Below, piece by piece: positions 691 to 43,636 of a DNA stretch of 64,000 nucleotides; positions within the stretch are counted from its first letter, which is position 1, and every line of letters starts with the position of its first letter. The DNA comes from Fibrobacter sp. UWR4 (GTDB lineage: Bacteria > Fibrobacterota > Fibrobacteria > Fibrobacterales > Fibrobacteraceae). A program made the translations under genes and the position numbers. The notes under the pieces were generated by a model, which saw only the letters and a program-made list of their open reading frames with translations, had not been told where the DNA came from and did not search any database. The stretch spans positions 1-64,000 of the forward strand of contig NZ_QGDU01000015.1 in NCBI RefSeq assembly GCF_003149045.1. Direction: 5' to 3'.

Positions 691-1065
691 ATGATTTCTG
701 AAAAAGACCTTGCTGAACTTGAAAGCGTCCCTTACGAGGAACGCATTACCCGCGTCGAAAAACTTCTGGAAGGAAAATCCGAACCCCGAGCATTCGAATT
801 GGGCCTCCTTCTCGCCCTCAAGATGGGCCAGGAATTGCGCCAGGGCAAGGAACTTGGAAGCGAATCCGGAGACCTGGTCGCCAGCTGGGTGGGCAAGCAC
901 CCGGATTCCATCGTAGAAGAGGCCATTGCACTGGCCAAGGAATTTCTCACCAACCCCGCCTCCCTTGCCGAAAAGATCAAGGCGGGCGTCATAAAGAAGG
1001 CGGAAGAAAAAGCCGCCGACGCAAACGAGAATAAGGCCGAGGACAAGTCCGAAGATGAACAATAA
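691..1065 (+). CDS. small acidic protein, function unknown
   Basis: A 124-residue protein, mostly helical in appearance, with an acidic and Lys/Ala-rich tail ending in EDEQ. I do not recognise a family. The size and the position directly before an exopolyphosphatase-like gene suggest a small partner protein, but nothing shows its role. An upstream in-frame ATG at 670 lies in the T tract of the preceding terminator, so 691 is preferred. Its stop overlaps the next gene's start (1055) by 11 bp, which implies translational coupling. Confidence 0.7.
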   Translation: MISEKDLAELESVPYEERITRVEKLLEGKSEPRAFELGLLLALKMGQELRQGKELGSESGDLVASWVGKHPDSIVEEAIALAKEFLTNPASLAEKIKAGVIKKAEEKAADANENKAEDKSEDEQ

Positions 1066-2080
1066 GCTCATCGCCACCGTGGACATTGGAAGCCATAGCT
1101 GCATCATGCTGATTGCAGCTTTCGAAGACGCACCCAATCCACCCTCCCCTGCCCCAAATCAGGAAGCAACGACCGAATCCGCCGATGCTGCGGAACCCGC
1201 TATTGCACCAGCCCCCCGCCAGATCCTCGTCCCGAAACTTCAGAAAGTTGAGGTTTGCCGTCTGGGCGAAGACATTTACGAGACAGGTTCCATCAGCGAG
1301 AAGCGCATCGAGGAACTGACCCGCATTATGACCAAGTTCCGCATGGATCTTCACGCACTGGGCGCCGACCTGAAGGCTGCCGCCGCTACGGAAGCCATGC
1401 GCAAGGCGGAAAACTCCGAAGTAGTTCTTGACGCTATCGAGAAAGCCCTCTGGGTTCGCCCCCAGATCATCTCCGGCGAACAGGAAGGCAAGCTGACCTT
1501 CCGTTCCGTCCGCGAATGGCACGGCAAGGACATTGTCACTCTGGACATTGGCGGCGGATCTACGGAACTTTCCAATGGGGAAACAACCTTCTCCATTCCG
1601 GTGGGCGCCCTGAAGATGTTCAAGGAAATGGGTCCCATCCCCGGTCCCGAATACAAGAAGTTTGTAAAGGAAGCCTTTAAGGACGTTTCCTTCAAGGGCA
1701 TGACCAAGAAACAGGTCTACCTCATTGGCGGTACAGGCACAGCCCTCGCCATGGTCTACCTGAACAAGCAGGTCTTTGACTACAAGGCCATCGAAGGCCT
1801 GGAACTGACCATCCGTGATCTGGATGCAGTTACCACCCGCATTACCAATCTTTCCAAGGAATTGCGAGCCATGTTGCCCGGCCTGGAAAACGGCCGTCAC
1901 GACGTCATTATCTGCGGGCTGTTCTGGCTCAAGTCCCTTCTGGAAAAACTCCGTGTGGAATCCTTCCGCATCAGTACCGCCGGTCTGCGTTTTGGTTTAC
2001 TCTATCCCCCAGAGGCTGAACCCGAGGAAAAACCCAAGGCAAAACGAATCCCGCCCTGGATGAAAAAAGCGGAAACTTGA
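1055..2080 (+). CDS. Ppx/GppA family phosphatase
   Basis: A 341-residue protein of the exopolyphosphatase/pppGpp phosphatase family in the ASKHA fold. The N-terminal phosphate loop DIGSHSCIMLI is at residues 10-20 and the second loop DIGGGSTEL near residues 165-173; GGTGTA follows near residue 225. The family releases phosphate from polyphosphate or pppGpp, and sequence alone does not say which. It is the short, two-domain form without the C-terminal HD domain of longer Ppx proteins. A Pro/Ala-rich insert of about 30 residues (roughly 25-58) interrupts the first domain, which is unusual. The C-terminus is basic. Confidence 0.85.
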   Translation: MNNKLIATVDIGSHSCIMLIAAFEDAPNPPSPAPNQEATTESADAAEPAIAPAPRQILVPKLQKVEVCRLGEDIYETGSISEKRIEELTRIMTKFRMDLHALGADLKAAAATEAMRKAENSEVVLDAIEKALWVRPQIISGEQEGKLTFRSVREWHGKDIVTLDIGGGSTELSNGETTFSIPVGALKMFKEMGPIPGPEYKKFVKEAFKDVSFKGMTKKQVYLIGGTGTALAMVYLNKQVFDYKAIEGLELTIRDLDAVTTRITNLSKELRAMLPGLENGRHDVIICGLFWLKSLLEKLRVESFRISTAGLRFGLLYPPEAEPEEKPKAKRIPPWMKKAET

Positions 2081-2446
2081 AATTAGAGACTAGAAACTAG
2101 AAATTAGAGATTAGAGGTTTAAGGGTACAGGGTACAGGGTATAGGGTATAGAGATTAGAGATGTTGGGAATACTCCATATGAAAATTTCAAGACGAAACT
2201 ATCCAGAAATCAAAAGCATATACATCTTGACGCCCTAGCCCCTAGACCCTAGATCCTAGCCTCTAAAACCCCCTAGACCCTAGATTAGTGGTTAGTGATT
2301 AGTGGTCAGTGATTAGAGATGTCGGGAATACTCCATATGAAAATTTAAAGACGAACCTATCCAGAAATCAAAAGCATATACATCTTGACGCCCTAGACCC
2401 TAGACCCTAGACCCTAACCCCTAAAACCCCCTAGCCCCTAAAAAAT
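2081..2446. repeat. 366-bp gap filled by heptamer arrays and a 158-bp duplication
   Basis: No gene fits this gap. From 2081 to 2162 the strand reads as degenerate 7-bp units such as AATTAGAG/ACTAGAA, then AGGGTAC and AGGGTAT. A unique core (2163-2229) follows, then complementary-type units such as CCCTAGA (2230-2285). The pattern then repeats: TTAGTGG-type units (2281-2320), a near-identical core (2321-2387) and CCCTAGA/CCCTAAA units (2388-2441). The two cores are offset by exactly 158 bp and differ at only a few positions. The array runs from the stop of the phosphatase gene to the start of the next gene and leaves no clear ribosome-binding site there. Confidence 0.85.
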
Positions 2447-3166
2447 ATGCGCATCAATAAGTTCATCTCCCTCTGTGGAATCGCAAGCCGTCGCGCAGCA
2501 GAAGCACTGATCGAAGACGGCAAGGTCATGGTCAACGGCGAAGTCATTCGAGACTTGGGCCACCAGGTTGACGAAGACAAGGACCAGGTCATGGTAGACG
2601 GCAAGAAGGCTCGTCTCCCCAAGAAGACCACCACCATCATGTTCCACAAGCCCGCAGGCTGTGTATGCACCAAGGACGACCCCCAGGGTCGCCAGACAGT
2701 GTATGATTTTCTGCCGCCGGGATACCATAGCTTGAAATACGTAGGCCGTCTGGACTTGCAGAGCCGCGGTCTCTTGCTATTTACCGACGACGGGGAACTA
2801 CTCCACCGCCTCACCCACCCCAGCTTTGAAATTCCCCGTAGCTATTACGTGTGGACCGACCGTCCCCTCAGCGAGCACGCCTGCCAGCGCCTGGTAGATG
2901 GCGTCGACATTCGTGAGGAAGGTTCGGACCAGGAAGAAATCGCTTTCGCTACGGACATCTATCTGGAAAATGGCTTTGCGGAACTTGTCCTGATTGAAGG
3001 AAAGAACCGCGAAATCCGTCGTATGATGAGAGCCGTAGGTTACGAAATTCGCGACCTGAAGCGCGTCAGCTATTGCCGCATGACCTTGGGAGATCTCCCC
3101 GCAGGTGAATACCGCGAACTGACCGCCGACGAAATGAACAAACTCCGTCAGGCAGTCCACATCTAG
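2447..3166 (+). CDS. RsuA/RluB-type 23S/16S rRNA pseudouridine synthase
   Basis: A 239-residue enzyme that converts a specific rRNA uridine to pseudouridine. An S4 RNA-binding domain fills about residues 1-60 (RINKFISLCGIASRRAAE). The catalytic motif GRLDLQSRGLLLFT has the expected Asp at residue 103. The RsuA-family motif GKNREIRRM is near residue 185. An S4 domain plus this catalytic core is typical of RluB, RluF and RsuA; RluB is the most likely but is not proven. A second, S4-less paralogue lies at 19449. The ATG sits at the edge of the repeat array and has no visible Shine-Dalgarno sequence. The next gene starts 8 bp after the stop. Confidence 0.88.
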   Translation: MRINKFISLCGIASRRAAEALIEDGKVMVNGEVIRDLGHQVDEDKDQVMVDGKKARLPKKTTTIMFHKPAGCVCTKDDPQGRQTVYDFLPPGYHSLKYVGRLDLQSRGLLLFTDDGELLHRLTHPSFEIPRSYYVWTDRPLSEHACQRLVDGVDIREEGSDQEEIAFATDIYLENGFAELVLIEGKNREIRRMMRAVGYEIRDLKRVSYCRMTLGDLPAGEYRELTADEMNKLRQAVHI

Positions 3167-23127: not shown

Positions 23128-23529
23128 ATGAGCCTCTTGAAATCGGCAATTATAAATTACGAGTTATGAATTACAAGATCTAACCAGGCGGCATAGCCGC
23201 GATTATTCTTCTCATAATTCATACTTTATAATTCGTAATTACCCGTAGGGTTAAAGTTACATGGGCAAAATTACATAATATTAGCTTAAAGCGGAAAGAA
23301 ATATCTTAAACCTTTAACATATTCGCTCTTTCCATCTTAGACCGGCATTTCAGGATAAACCACACATTTTGGGCGACAAATGCTCATTTTTAGGGGATGA
23401 ACAGGCTGTTATCGCATTTTCGCCACACTTTTCACCCTTTTTTTTCACTTTTTTCTTATTTTTTGTTTCTGTTTTGTCAAAGAGAATTTATTTTTTGGCA
23501 GGAAAAATTTTAAATCAAAGAGGAATACT
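23128..23529. other. 402-bp divergent gap with heptamer inverted array
   Basis: An AT-rich region between divergent genes. It contains the heptamer array at 23148-23243. The remaining part to 23529 has no recognisable gene and must hold the promoters of both genes; I cannot place the -35/-10 boxes convincingly. AGAGGAATACT before 23530 is a good ribosome-binding site. Confidence 0.6.
23148..23243. repeat. inverted heptamer array with GC-rich hairpin core
   Basis: The left arm (23148-23175) reads AATTACG, AGTTATG, AATTACA. The right arm (23212-23243) reads TAATTCA, TACTTTA, TAATTCG, TAATTAC, roughly its reverse complement. The core holds a small perfect hairpin GCGGC-ATA-GCCGC (23188-23200). 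The arms could pair into a long imperfect stem. Confidence 0.75.
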
Positions 23530-24309
23530 ATGAATATAAAGAACCTGATGCTGGCTACCATGCTCGCCTCCGCAGTTGTTTTCGCAGCACCGGCCGCCAA
23601 GAAGGGCGCCGCTCCTGCTAAGAAGAAGCCTGCTGCCGCTGCTCCTGCTCCGGCTCCTGCCGAAGCTCCGAAGGCTGAAGTTGCCGCACCGGCTCCTGCT
23701 ACTGAAGCAGCTGCTCCGGCCCCTGCCGCTGAAGCTGCTGCCGCTCCGGCTCCTGCCGCTGAAGCTGCCGCTGCTCCGGCTCCTGCCGCTGAAGCTGCCG
23801 CCGCTCCGGCTCCTGCCACTGAAGCTGCCGCCGCTCCGGCTCCTGCCGCTGAAGCTGCTGCCGCTCCGGCTCCTGCTGCTGAAGCTGCTGCCGCTCCGGC
23901 TCCTGCTGCTGAAGCCGCTCCGGCTCCGGCTGAACAGGCTGCTGCTCCTGCAGACTCTGCTGCAGCTCCTGCCGCTGAACAGGCTGCCGCTCCTGCTGAT
24001 TCTGCCGCAGCTCCCGTTGCTGAACAGGCTGCCGCCGAAACCGCTGCAGTAGACACAGCAAAGACCGAAGTTCTCGAAGCAAAGGCTGAAGAAGCTCCTG
24101 TTGATTCTGCCGCCCTCGCTAAGTCTGAAGAAGAAAAGAAGGCTGCTGAAGCTGAAGCAAAGGCCAAGGCAGAAGAAGAAGCTAAGGTTGCTAGCGAAGC
24201 TAACGGCGCTGCCAAGACCTCCGTCATGGAAAACCCCTGGGAATTCCTGATTGTGTCCGTGGCATTCGTTGCCTCCGTTCTCGCCATCATCTTCACAGGC
24301 AAGGATTAA
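23530..24309 (+). CDS. Ala/Pro/Glu-repeat protein with C-terminal membrane helix
   Basis: A 259-residue protein with a signal peptide (about 1-19, ending VFA). A short KK-rich stretch follows, then about seven 10-residue units of the type APAPAAEAAA (roughly residues 55-130), two units with AEQAAAPADSAA, and a Glu/Lys/Ala helix (about 175-225). It ends in one hydrophobic helix (WEFLIVSVAFVASVLAIIF) and GKD. The build suggests an extended envelope-spanning or anchored protein, similar to Pro/Ala spacers of TonB-like proteins but without a TonB domain. The function is unknown. It has a strong ribosome-binding site and a terminator. Confidence 0.75.
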   Translation: MNIKNLMLATMLASAVVFAAPAAKKGAAPAKKKPAAAAPAPAPAEAPKAEVAAPAPATEAAAPAPAAEAAAAPAPAAEAAAAPAPAAEAAAAPAPATEAAAAPAPAAEAAAAPAPAAEAAAAPAPAAEAAPAPAEQAAAPADSAAAPAAEQAAAPADSAAAPVAEQAAAETAAVDTAKTEVLEAKAEEAPVDSAALAKSEEEKKAAEAEAKAKAEEEAKVASEANGAAKTSVMENPWEFLIVSVAFVASVLAIIFTGKD

Positions 24310-43559: not shown

Positions 43560-43561
43560 AA

Positions 43562-43636
43562 TTAGTAGGAAGTAGGAAGTAGGAAGTAGGAAGTGAGATG
43601 CATTCTGTCTACTTCCTACCGTCTACTGTCTACTAT
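43562..43636. repeat. inverted heptamer array between tkt and nrdR
   Basis: The left arm repeats TAGGAAG about four times (43564-43594). After a 12-bp core the right arm reads CTGTCTA, CTTCCTA, CCGTCTA, CTGTCTA (43606-43636). The two arms are of complementary type. The tkt stop codon (TAG) lies in the right arm. Confidence 0.8.

Follow-up and report, generated by a model that had tools for sequence, protein, structure and literature searches.

Facing heptamer arrays around a dispersed core in intergenic DNA of Fibrobacter

A duplicated block between two genes

In the stretch of 64,000 nucleotides of Fibrobacter sp. UWR4 DNA analysed here (the window), the entire gap from a stop codon at 2080 to an ATG at 2447 (ORF calls), positions 2081-2446, is made of degenerate 7-bp units arranged around a core. 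The upstream ORF (1055..2080, + strand) belongs to the Ppx/GppA phosphatase family (Pfam PF02541, E 1.5e-36), and the downstream ORF (2447..3166, + strand) carries an S4 domain and an RNA pseudouridine synthase domain (PF00849, PF01479).

Block 1 opens with a left arm (2081..2158, + strand) of TAG-type heptamers such as TTAGAGA and CTAGAAA together with a GGGTACA/GGGTATA stretch, continues with a core (2159..2233, + strand; nhmmer family match 2157-2237) and closes with a right arm (2234..2282, - strand) of the CTA-type heptamers CCCTAGA and CCCCTAG, both arms being visible in the sequence, in TRF and in the lag-7 signal. Self-comparison and TRF place the left arm of block 2, with TTAGTGG/TTAGTGA heptamers, at 2283..2316 (+ strand); its core, from self-comparison and the nhmmer family, occupies 2317..2391 (+ strand; family match 2315-2395), and its right arm of CCCTAGA/CCCTAAA heptamers (2392..2440, - strand; sequence and TRF) ends 6 nt 5' of the ATG at 2447. 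The lag-7 self-match reaches 0.54 in 2081-2446 against 0.24 across the whole window, and TRF returned 7-bp arrays at 2084-2116, 2122-2148, 2233-2284, 2283-2320 and 2391-2420. Moreover, positions 2150-2282 are repeated at 2308-2440 with 93% identity over 133 nt at an offset of 158. These data bear out the first-pass annotation, which had described degenerate 7-bp units of TAG type on the left (TTAGAGA, CTAGAAA, TTAGTGG) and of CTA type on the right (CCCTAGA), in a block occurring twice at a 158-bp offset; the core that it had proposed is also present, but is about 70-80 bp long (~81 nt in the family alignment) and not 67 bp. The 158-bp offset is probably the result of the tandem duplication of a single copy. 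A dedicated regulatory role of the element at 2081-2446 is probably absent, and the case is a caution against taking heptamer arrays for conserved regulatory elements.

The window contains two relatives of this sequence, neither of them assigned to a strand. One, found by TRF and by the array scan at 43560..43632, is nearly core-less, with four AGTAGGA units facing CTGTCTA/CTTCCTA, and occupies all of the space between two genes on the minus strand (start 43559, stop 43633), which we take from their sequences to be nrdR-like and transketolase-like, respectively. The other is weaker, lies at about 23147..23241 and consists of AATTACGAGTTATGAATTA words, a GGCGGCATAGCCGCG hairpin and CATAATTC words, part of which exceeds the lag-7 threshold; it sits in the divergent gap 23128-23529, and G052 also has an array at the same site.

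Abundance, orientation and spread of period-7 arrays

We sampled 864 kb, about a quarter of the genome, with genes delimited approximately by a purpose-written simple codon-based caller, and found period-7 arrays in 33 of the 405 regions between genes. For the remaining periods in the range 4-13 the count lay between 0 and 7, the harmonic 14 gave 30, and Markov shuffles gave about 4.4 (1-7) period-7 arrays; only 4 were present in all the coding sequence of the sample. In six Fibrobacter genomes, a count that includes some G014 stretches picked near known matches, 104 of 1133 sampled intergenic regions had such an array, and none of the other periods between 4 and 13 exceeded 19. The average lag profile of all intergenic DNA rises only slightly at 7 because the arrays sit in a minority of regions, so that the local-window count is the informative measure. 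The lag-7 excess for which the first-pass annotation had proposed to search intergenic DNA is therefore present, and the arms are, as it had described, mostly of opposite type: among neighbouring array pairs, 20 face each other (TAG type, then CTA type), only 1 shows the reverse, facing-away arrangement and 17 run in the same direction.

The orientation of the arrays also follows the genes. Within 40 nt of a start codon, 50 of 55 arrays showed the CTA/TCA type when read on the sense strand (2 of the other type, 3 tied), and within 40 nt of a stop they were of TAG/TGA type in 30 of 41 (8 of the other type, 3 tied). Purine content, a measure correlated with TAG/TGA word orientation, gave the same picture as the TAG/TGA versus CTA/TCA scoring. 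As opposite types stand at starts and stops, it is the TAG strand that leads outward from a gene at either end. A stop codon lay in register with the array at only 11 of 31 stop-abutting arrays. By gap type, arrays were present in 48 of the 408 gaps between co-directional genes, 14 of the 164 between divergent genes and 4 of the 105 between convergent genes, so that the under-represented class is the convergent one, whereas in Xanthomonas it is the divergent one (PMC4692102). Their scarcity between convergent genes is evidence against a terminator role, and at C11:20607 a separate terminator-like hairpin lies before the element.

At many starts in G000, G003, G008, G014 and G016 we also noticed a TATATTTG/TATCTTTG box ~10-25 nt 5' of the ATG, often immediately 3' of an array, which has the appearance of the genus's -10 promoter element.

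Four consecutive TAGNNNN units were found in 60 of 61 Fibrobacter genomes (the relatives being mostly metagenome-assembled), with a maximum of 578 matches in one genome, against few matches in most of the 61 for the reversed control, GATNNNN x4. Among other Fibrobacterota, TAGNNNN x4 is present in some, in a patchy way. The words themselves are species-specific: TAG followed by TTAC/TTAT, by AACT/AGCT/TTGG or by GAAG/ACAG, as well as GTGAGCN, ATGAATT, ATTGATG and others. In G011, G012 and G015, GATNNNN x4 is itself abundant, that is, these genomes have GAT-based heptamer arrays.

Dispersal and turnover of arm-core-arm units

The arm-core-arm units are dispersed with their arms facing each other, their orthologous sites are filled, differently worded or empty, and their turnover is rapid. 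The 133-nt block occurs at 45 places in its own genome, ~15 of them over more than 100 nt, and a profile search returned 54 places, which reduce to 45 distinct copies of the ~81-nt core in the two species G000 and G011. Core identity was 0.71 and 0.73 within the species and 0.71 between them; the family is therefore older than the split of G000 and G011. At unrelated loci the match extends through arms and core, with 87-92% over 129-158 nt, and G008 has similar dispersed units. Phage carriage of the core was rejected, as a search of viral contigs gave no match to it. Many arrays have no shared core, and these could have grown in place.

The gap between the Ppx/GppA and pseudouridine synthase genes carries single blocks with differing cores in G052 and G011, ATGAAAA/TTCATTG arms in G009 and no array in many species. 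Just 3' of a stop codon at C4:11252 of G000, the insert of G011 is a 167-bp arm-core-arm unit, G052 has a core-less inverted array of ~64 bp, and in G056 the alignment breaks, with ~100 extra bases; the alignment is uninterrupted in G000, G073, G041, G024, G057, G071 and G003. The simplest reading of these alignments would be three independent gains with different inserts. The element at C14:74101 of G000 (~150 bp) is present in G000 and G011, with 5 bp in G052 and 25-50 bp in several others; as G052 is the nearer to G000 in protein identity, it has probably lost the element precisely. Comparison of 90 orthologous gaps between G000 and G052 gave arrays in both species at 3 and in only one at 8. 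Between trpE and trpG the junction is tight (TAATG or TAAGATG) in many species and holds differing inserts between stop and start in others, with the ancestral state uncertain because several inserted species share a leader just 5' of trpG; the greA-tatD junction is likewise tight in some species and filled with differently worded inserts in others.

Several smaller observations concern these junctions and other repeats. At trpE-trpG (L259-L288), tight-junction species end trpE with TAA and most insert species with TAG, a pattern as if the insert had given the stop codon of trpE its last base. A second dispersed palindromic repeat, GGAGCGAAGCTCCGACCTCATACCTCAAGCGAAGCGTACCTC, with its own 7-bp rhythm (GAGGTAT/GAGGTCG), is identical over 50 nt in two intergenic regions, L016 and L019 (G000 C1 ~32485 and C5 ~96500). 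In other species (L051 of G008; L274, L277, L279 and L280), REP-like hairpins of the forms ATTGCTTCAGG..CTTCGCAATGACAA and ATCACGCACTTCGTGCGTC...GACGGCGAAGCCGTGAT are embedded between the same heptamer arms or lie at the same junctions.

Origin of the arrays and related systems

We favour, with modest confidence, the reading that 2081-2446 consists of copies of a dispersed, fast-turnover, non-coding intergenic element with inward-facing, slippage-prone arms of degenerate heptamers around a core. Copies would arise between genes by insertion or gene conversion and would later be lost, and their arms would lengthen, shorten and homogenise in each genome through 7-nt slippage and conversion, which could explain the species-specific words. 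Selection would mainly purge the copies that break genes or signals, so that the survivors would lie between a stop codon and a promoter or start codon, and the fixed facing of the arms would be the inverted-repeat structure of the element itself. Such an element resembles the MITE class in its size (~130-200 bp), its dispersal, its non-coding nature, its inverted-repeat arms and its presence or absence at orthologous sites, whole units being either there or missing at C4:11252 and C14:74101. Unlike MITEs, it has arms of heptamers without a fixed terminal repeat, and neither a target duplication nor a partner transposase was found. Several results count against the dispersed element: we saw no pair of copies above ~93% identity, neither a clean duplication of a target site nor a defined end of the element came to light, and the repeated gain at C4:11252 within one 10-bp spot is unusual for random insertion. 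At the one empty site that could be read, no clear duplication was seen, and no partner transposon was found.

An intercistronic RNA element setting the expression of the downstream gene seems improbable to us. The purine-rich arm after the stop would then pair in the mRNA with the pyrimidine-rich arm before the start, or the pyrimidine-rich leader would recruit ribosomes without a Shine-Dalgarno sequence; the strict orientation at gene edges (50/55 near starts, 30/41 near stops) would fit this, as would the scarcity of Shine-Dalgarno-like sequences, present at 17 of the 61 starts that abut an array and at 984 of 1907 starts overall, and facing arms can indeed pair, for example at 43560-43632 (fold z -5.5). 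The whole interval 2081-2446 also folds better than its dinucleotide shuffles (z -5.1 and -4.6), a result to which the duplication contributes: block 1 beats its shuffles on the + strand (z -3.6), and block 2 alone is weak (z -1.9 on the + and +0.4 on the - strand). However, array-bearing intergenic regions as a class show no advantage in folding over array-free ones (mean z -2.24, n=78, vs -2.62, n=120), and the pairing of a left arm with its own right arm is no stronger than with right arms taken from other loci (p=0.73). The alignment of the cores yields a weak consensus fold with few compensating changes, and relatives lack the element at the same junction. Taken together, the missing class-wide excess of folding, the arm-swap result and the weak core fold lead us not to regard an RNA stem as a selected feature, and the long, specially stable stem suggested by the first-pass annotation finds no support here. 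A search of Rfam gave nothing above the gathering score, the only hit being MIR2118 with 18.8 bits against a cut-off of 85.

Growth in place is a more serious competitor, although we consider it unlikely. Simple heptanucleotide repeats (STRR/SSR-like) would have been extended by polymerase slippage without moving, one arm being copied onto the other by hairpin template switching. In its favour, arrays made of arms alone are frequent, single-base changes separate the units, each species has its own words, and slippage is discussed for heptamers in the literature; furthermore, an arm is slightly more alike to its own partner than to the arms of other loci (10.7 vs 9.1, p=0.002, in what is the weaker test). 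Slippage in place does not account, however, for the shared 81-nt core and the arm-core-arm matches of 129-158 nt at unrelated loci, nor for the presence or absence of whole units at C4:11252 and C14:74101. The enrichment of TAG on the gene-outward strand over column-permuted units (391 vs 155, z 12.7) could point to a frame-independent stop cassette, in which TAG/TGA at 7-nt spacing gives stops in three frames from either end and is selected so that insertion at a gene end is harmless, but TAA is depleted in the same comparison (72 vs 138), which selection for stops as such would not yield, and this explanation is very unlikely. Telomere-like healing, in which an enzyme would add TAG-type heptamers to both inward 3' ends of a DNA break or stall between genes before the ends are joined, sometimes with a captured hairpin or core, is an extremely long shot; if true, it would account for a TAG strand directed outward from the gene on either side of the gap, for the differing words at one and the same junction across species and for the recurrence of the rule in Xanthomonas and Nostoc. 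We give almost no credence to a REP/REPIN-type element moved by a RAYT or IS200-like Y1 transposase. Other species often have hairpin cores such as GGCGGC-TTC-GCCGCG, and TAG beside small GC hairpins resembles the foot tetranucleotide of REP elements; nevertheless, a Y1/RAYT gene (PF01797) is present in only 20 of 61 genomes and is missing from the array-rich G006, G008, G016, G022, G067 and G076, a distribution that excludes this transposase as a general mover.

With regard to known systems, the first-pass annotation knew of no description of the inverted form, but convergent inverted GGGAATC pairs have been published for Xanthomonas, 70 in Xcc and 75 in Xac (PMC4692102), and Nostoc P6b is a further case (PMC4476775). 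Rehm et al. (2015) reported heptamer arrays of GGGAATC in Xanthomonas and GGGGA(C/T)T in Nostoc, with strong variation between close relatives and no known function (PMC4692102). The Fibrobacter arrays resemble these in being degenerate 7-nt units, intergenic and dispersed, with the same orientation rule relative to genes (PMC4692102): tandem 7-nt units are far above chance between genes, pairs face each other 20:1 and the purine-rich strand runs outward from genes. They depart from the GGGAATC/GGGGAYT consensus, which is G-quadruplex-capable, as the Fibrobacter words are TAG+NNNN and others, with G-runs in some only (GGGTCTA type), and, unlike the Xanthomonas study with its one word family per genome, we find many TAG-based families, often not G-rich, and a dispersed 81-nt core. 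We read the Fibrobacter element as a variant of the inverted heptamer form already published for Xanthomonas.

Heptanucleotide repeats of cyanobacteria are named STRR. These are named heptamers in direct tandem, and the Fibrobacter words differ from the STRR words. The likening to cyanobacterial repeats made in the first-pass annotation is apt. The P6b stem of the Nostoc tRNA-Leu(UAA) intron has degenerate 7-nt words (TDNGATT, NNTGAGT) on both sides, with gains and losses in units of 7 and the replacement of one word class by another (PMC4476775). P6b is, however, a structural part of an intron (PMC4476775), whereas the Fibrobacter arms lie between genes, with no clear sign that they are selected to pair. 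The TAACTGA direct repeats of Beggiatoaceae are abundant, intergenic and mostly located just upstream of starts, where canonical ribosome-binding sites are rare, and they contain stops in all frames (MacGregor 2015; PMC4679880); unlike the Fibrobacter arrays, they consist of one fixed word in direct repeats, with a sole inverted case reported (PMC4679880). Intergenic repeats go unmentioned in the main text of the F. succinogenes S85 genome paper, and among the open-licence papers searched we found none on such arrays in Fibrobacter. Facing imperfect heptamer arrays that obey the same strand rule are known for Xanthomonas and Nostoc from the literature, and Fibrobacter now adds a third distant phylum. 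Their near-universal presence in the genus, the species-specific words and the repeated gain at the same junctions make Fibrobacter a good system for studying how such arrays originate, spread and are excluded from genes, a question that earlier reports left open.

Finally, the window holds two repeats of another kind. A short Lys/Ala/Pro-rich ORF (MATAKKTVAKK...) at 203-613 contains about ten 39-bp repeats and has a histone-H1-like look, and positions 23682-24035 contain Ala/Pro-rich repeats of 30 and 45 bp that look like coding sequence.
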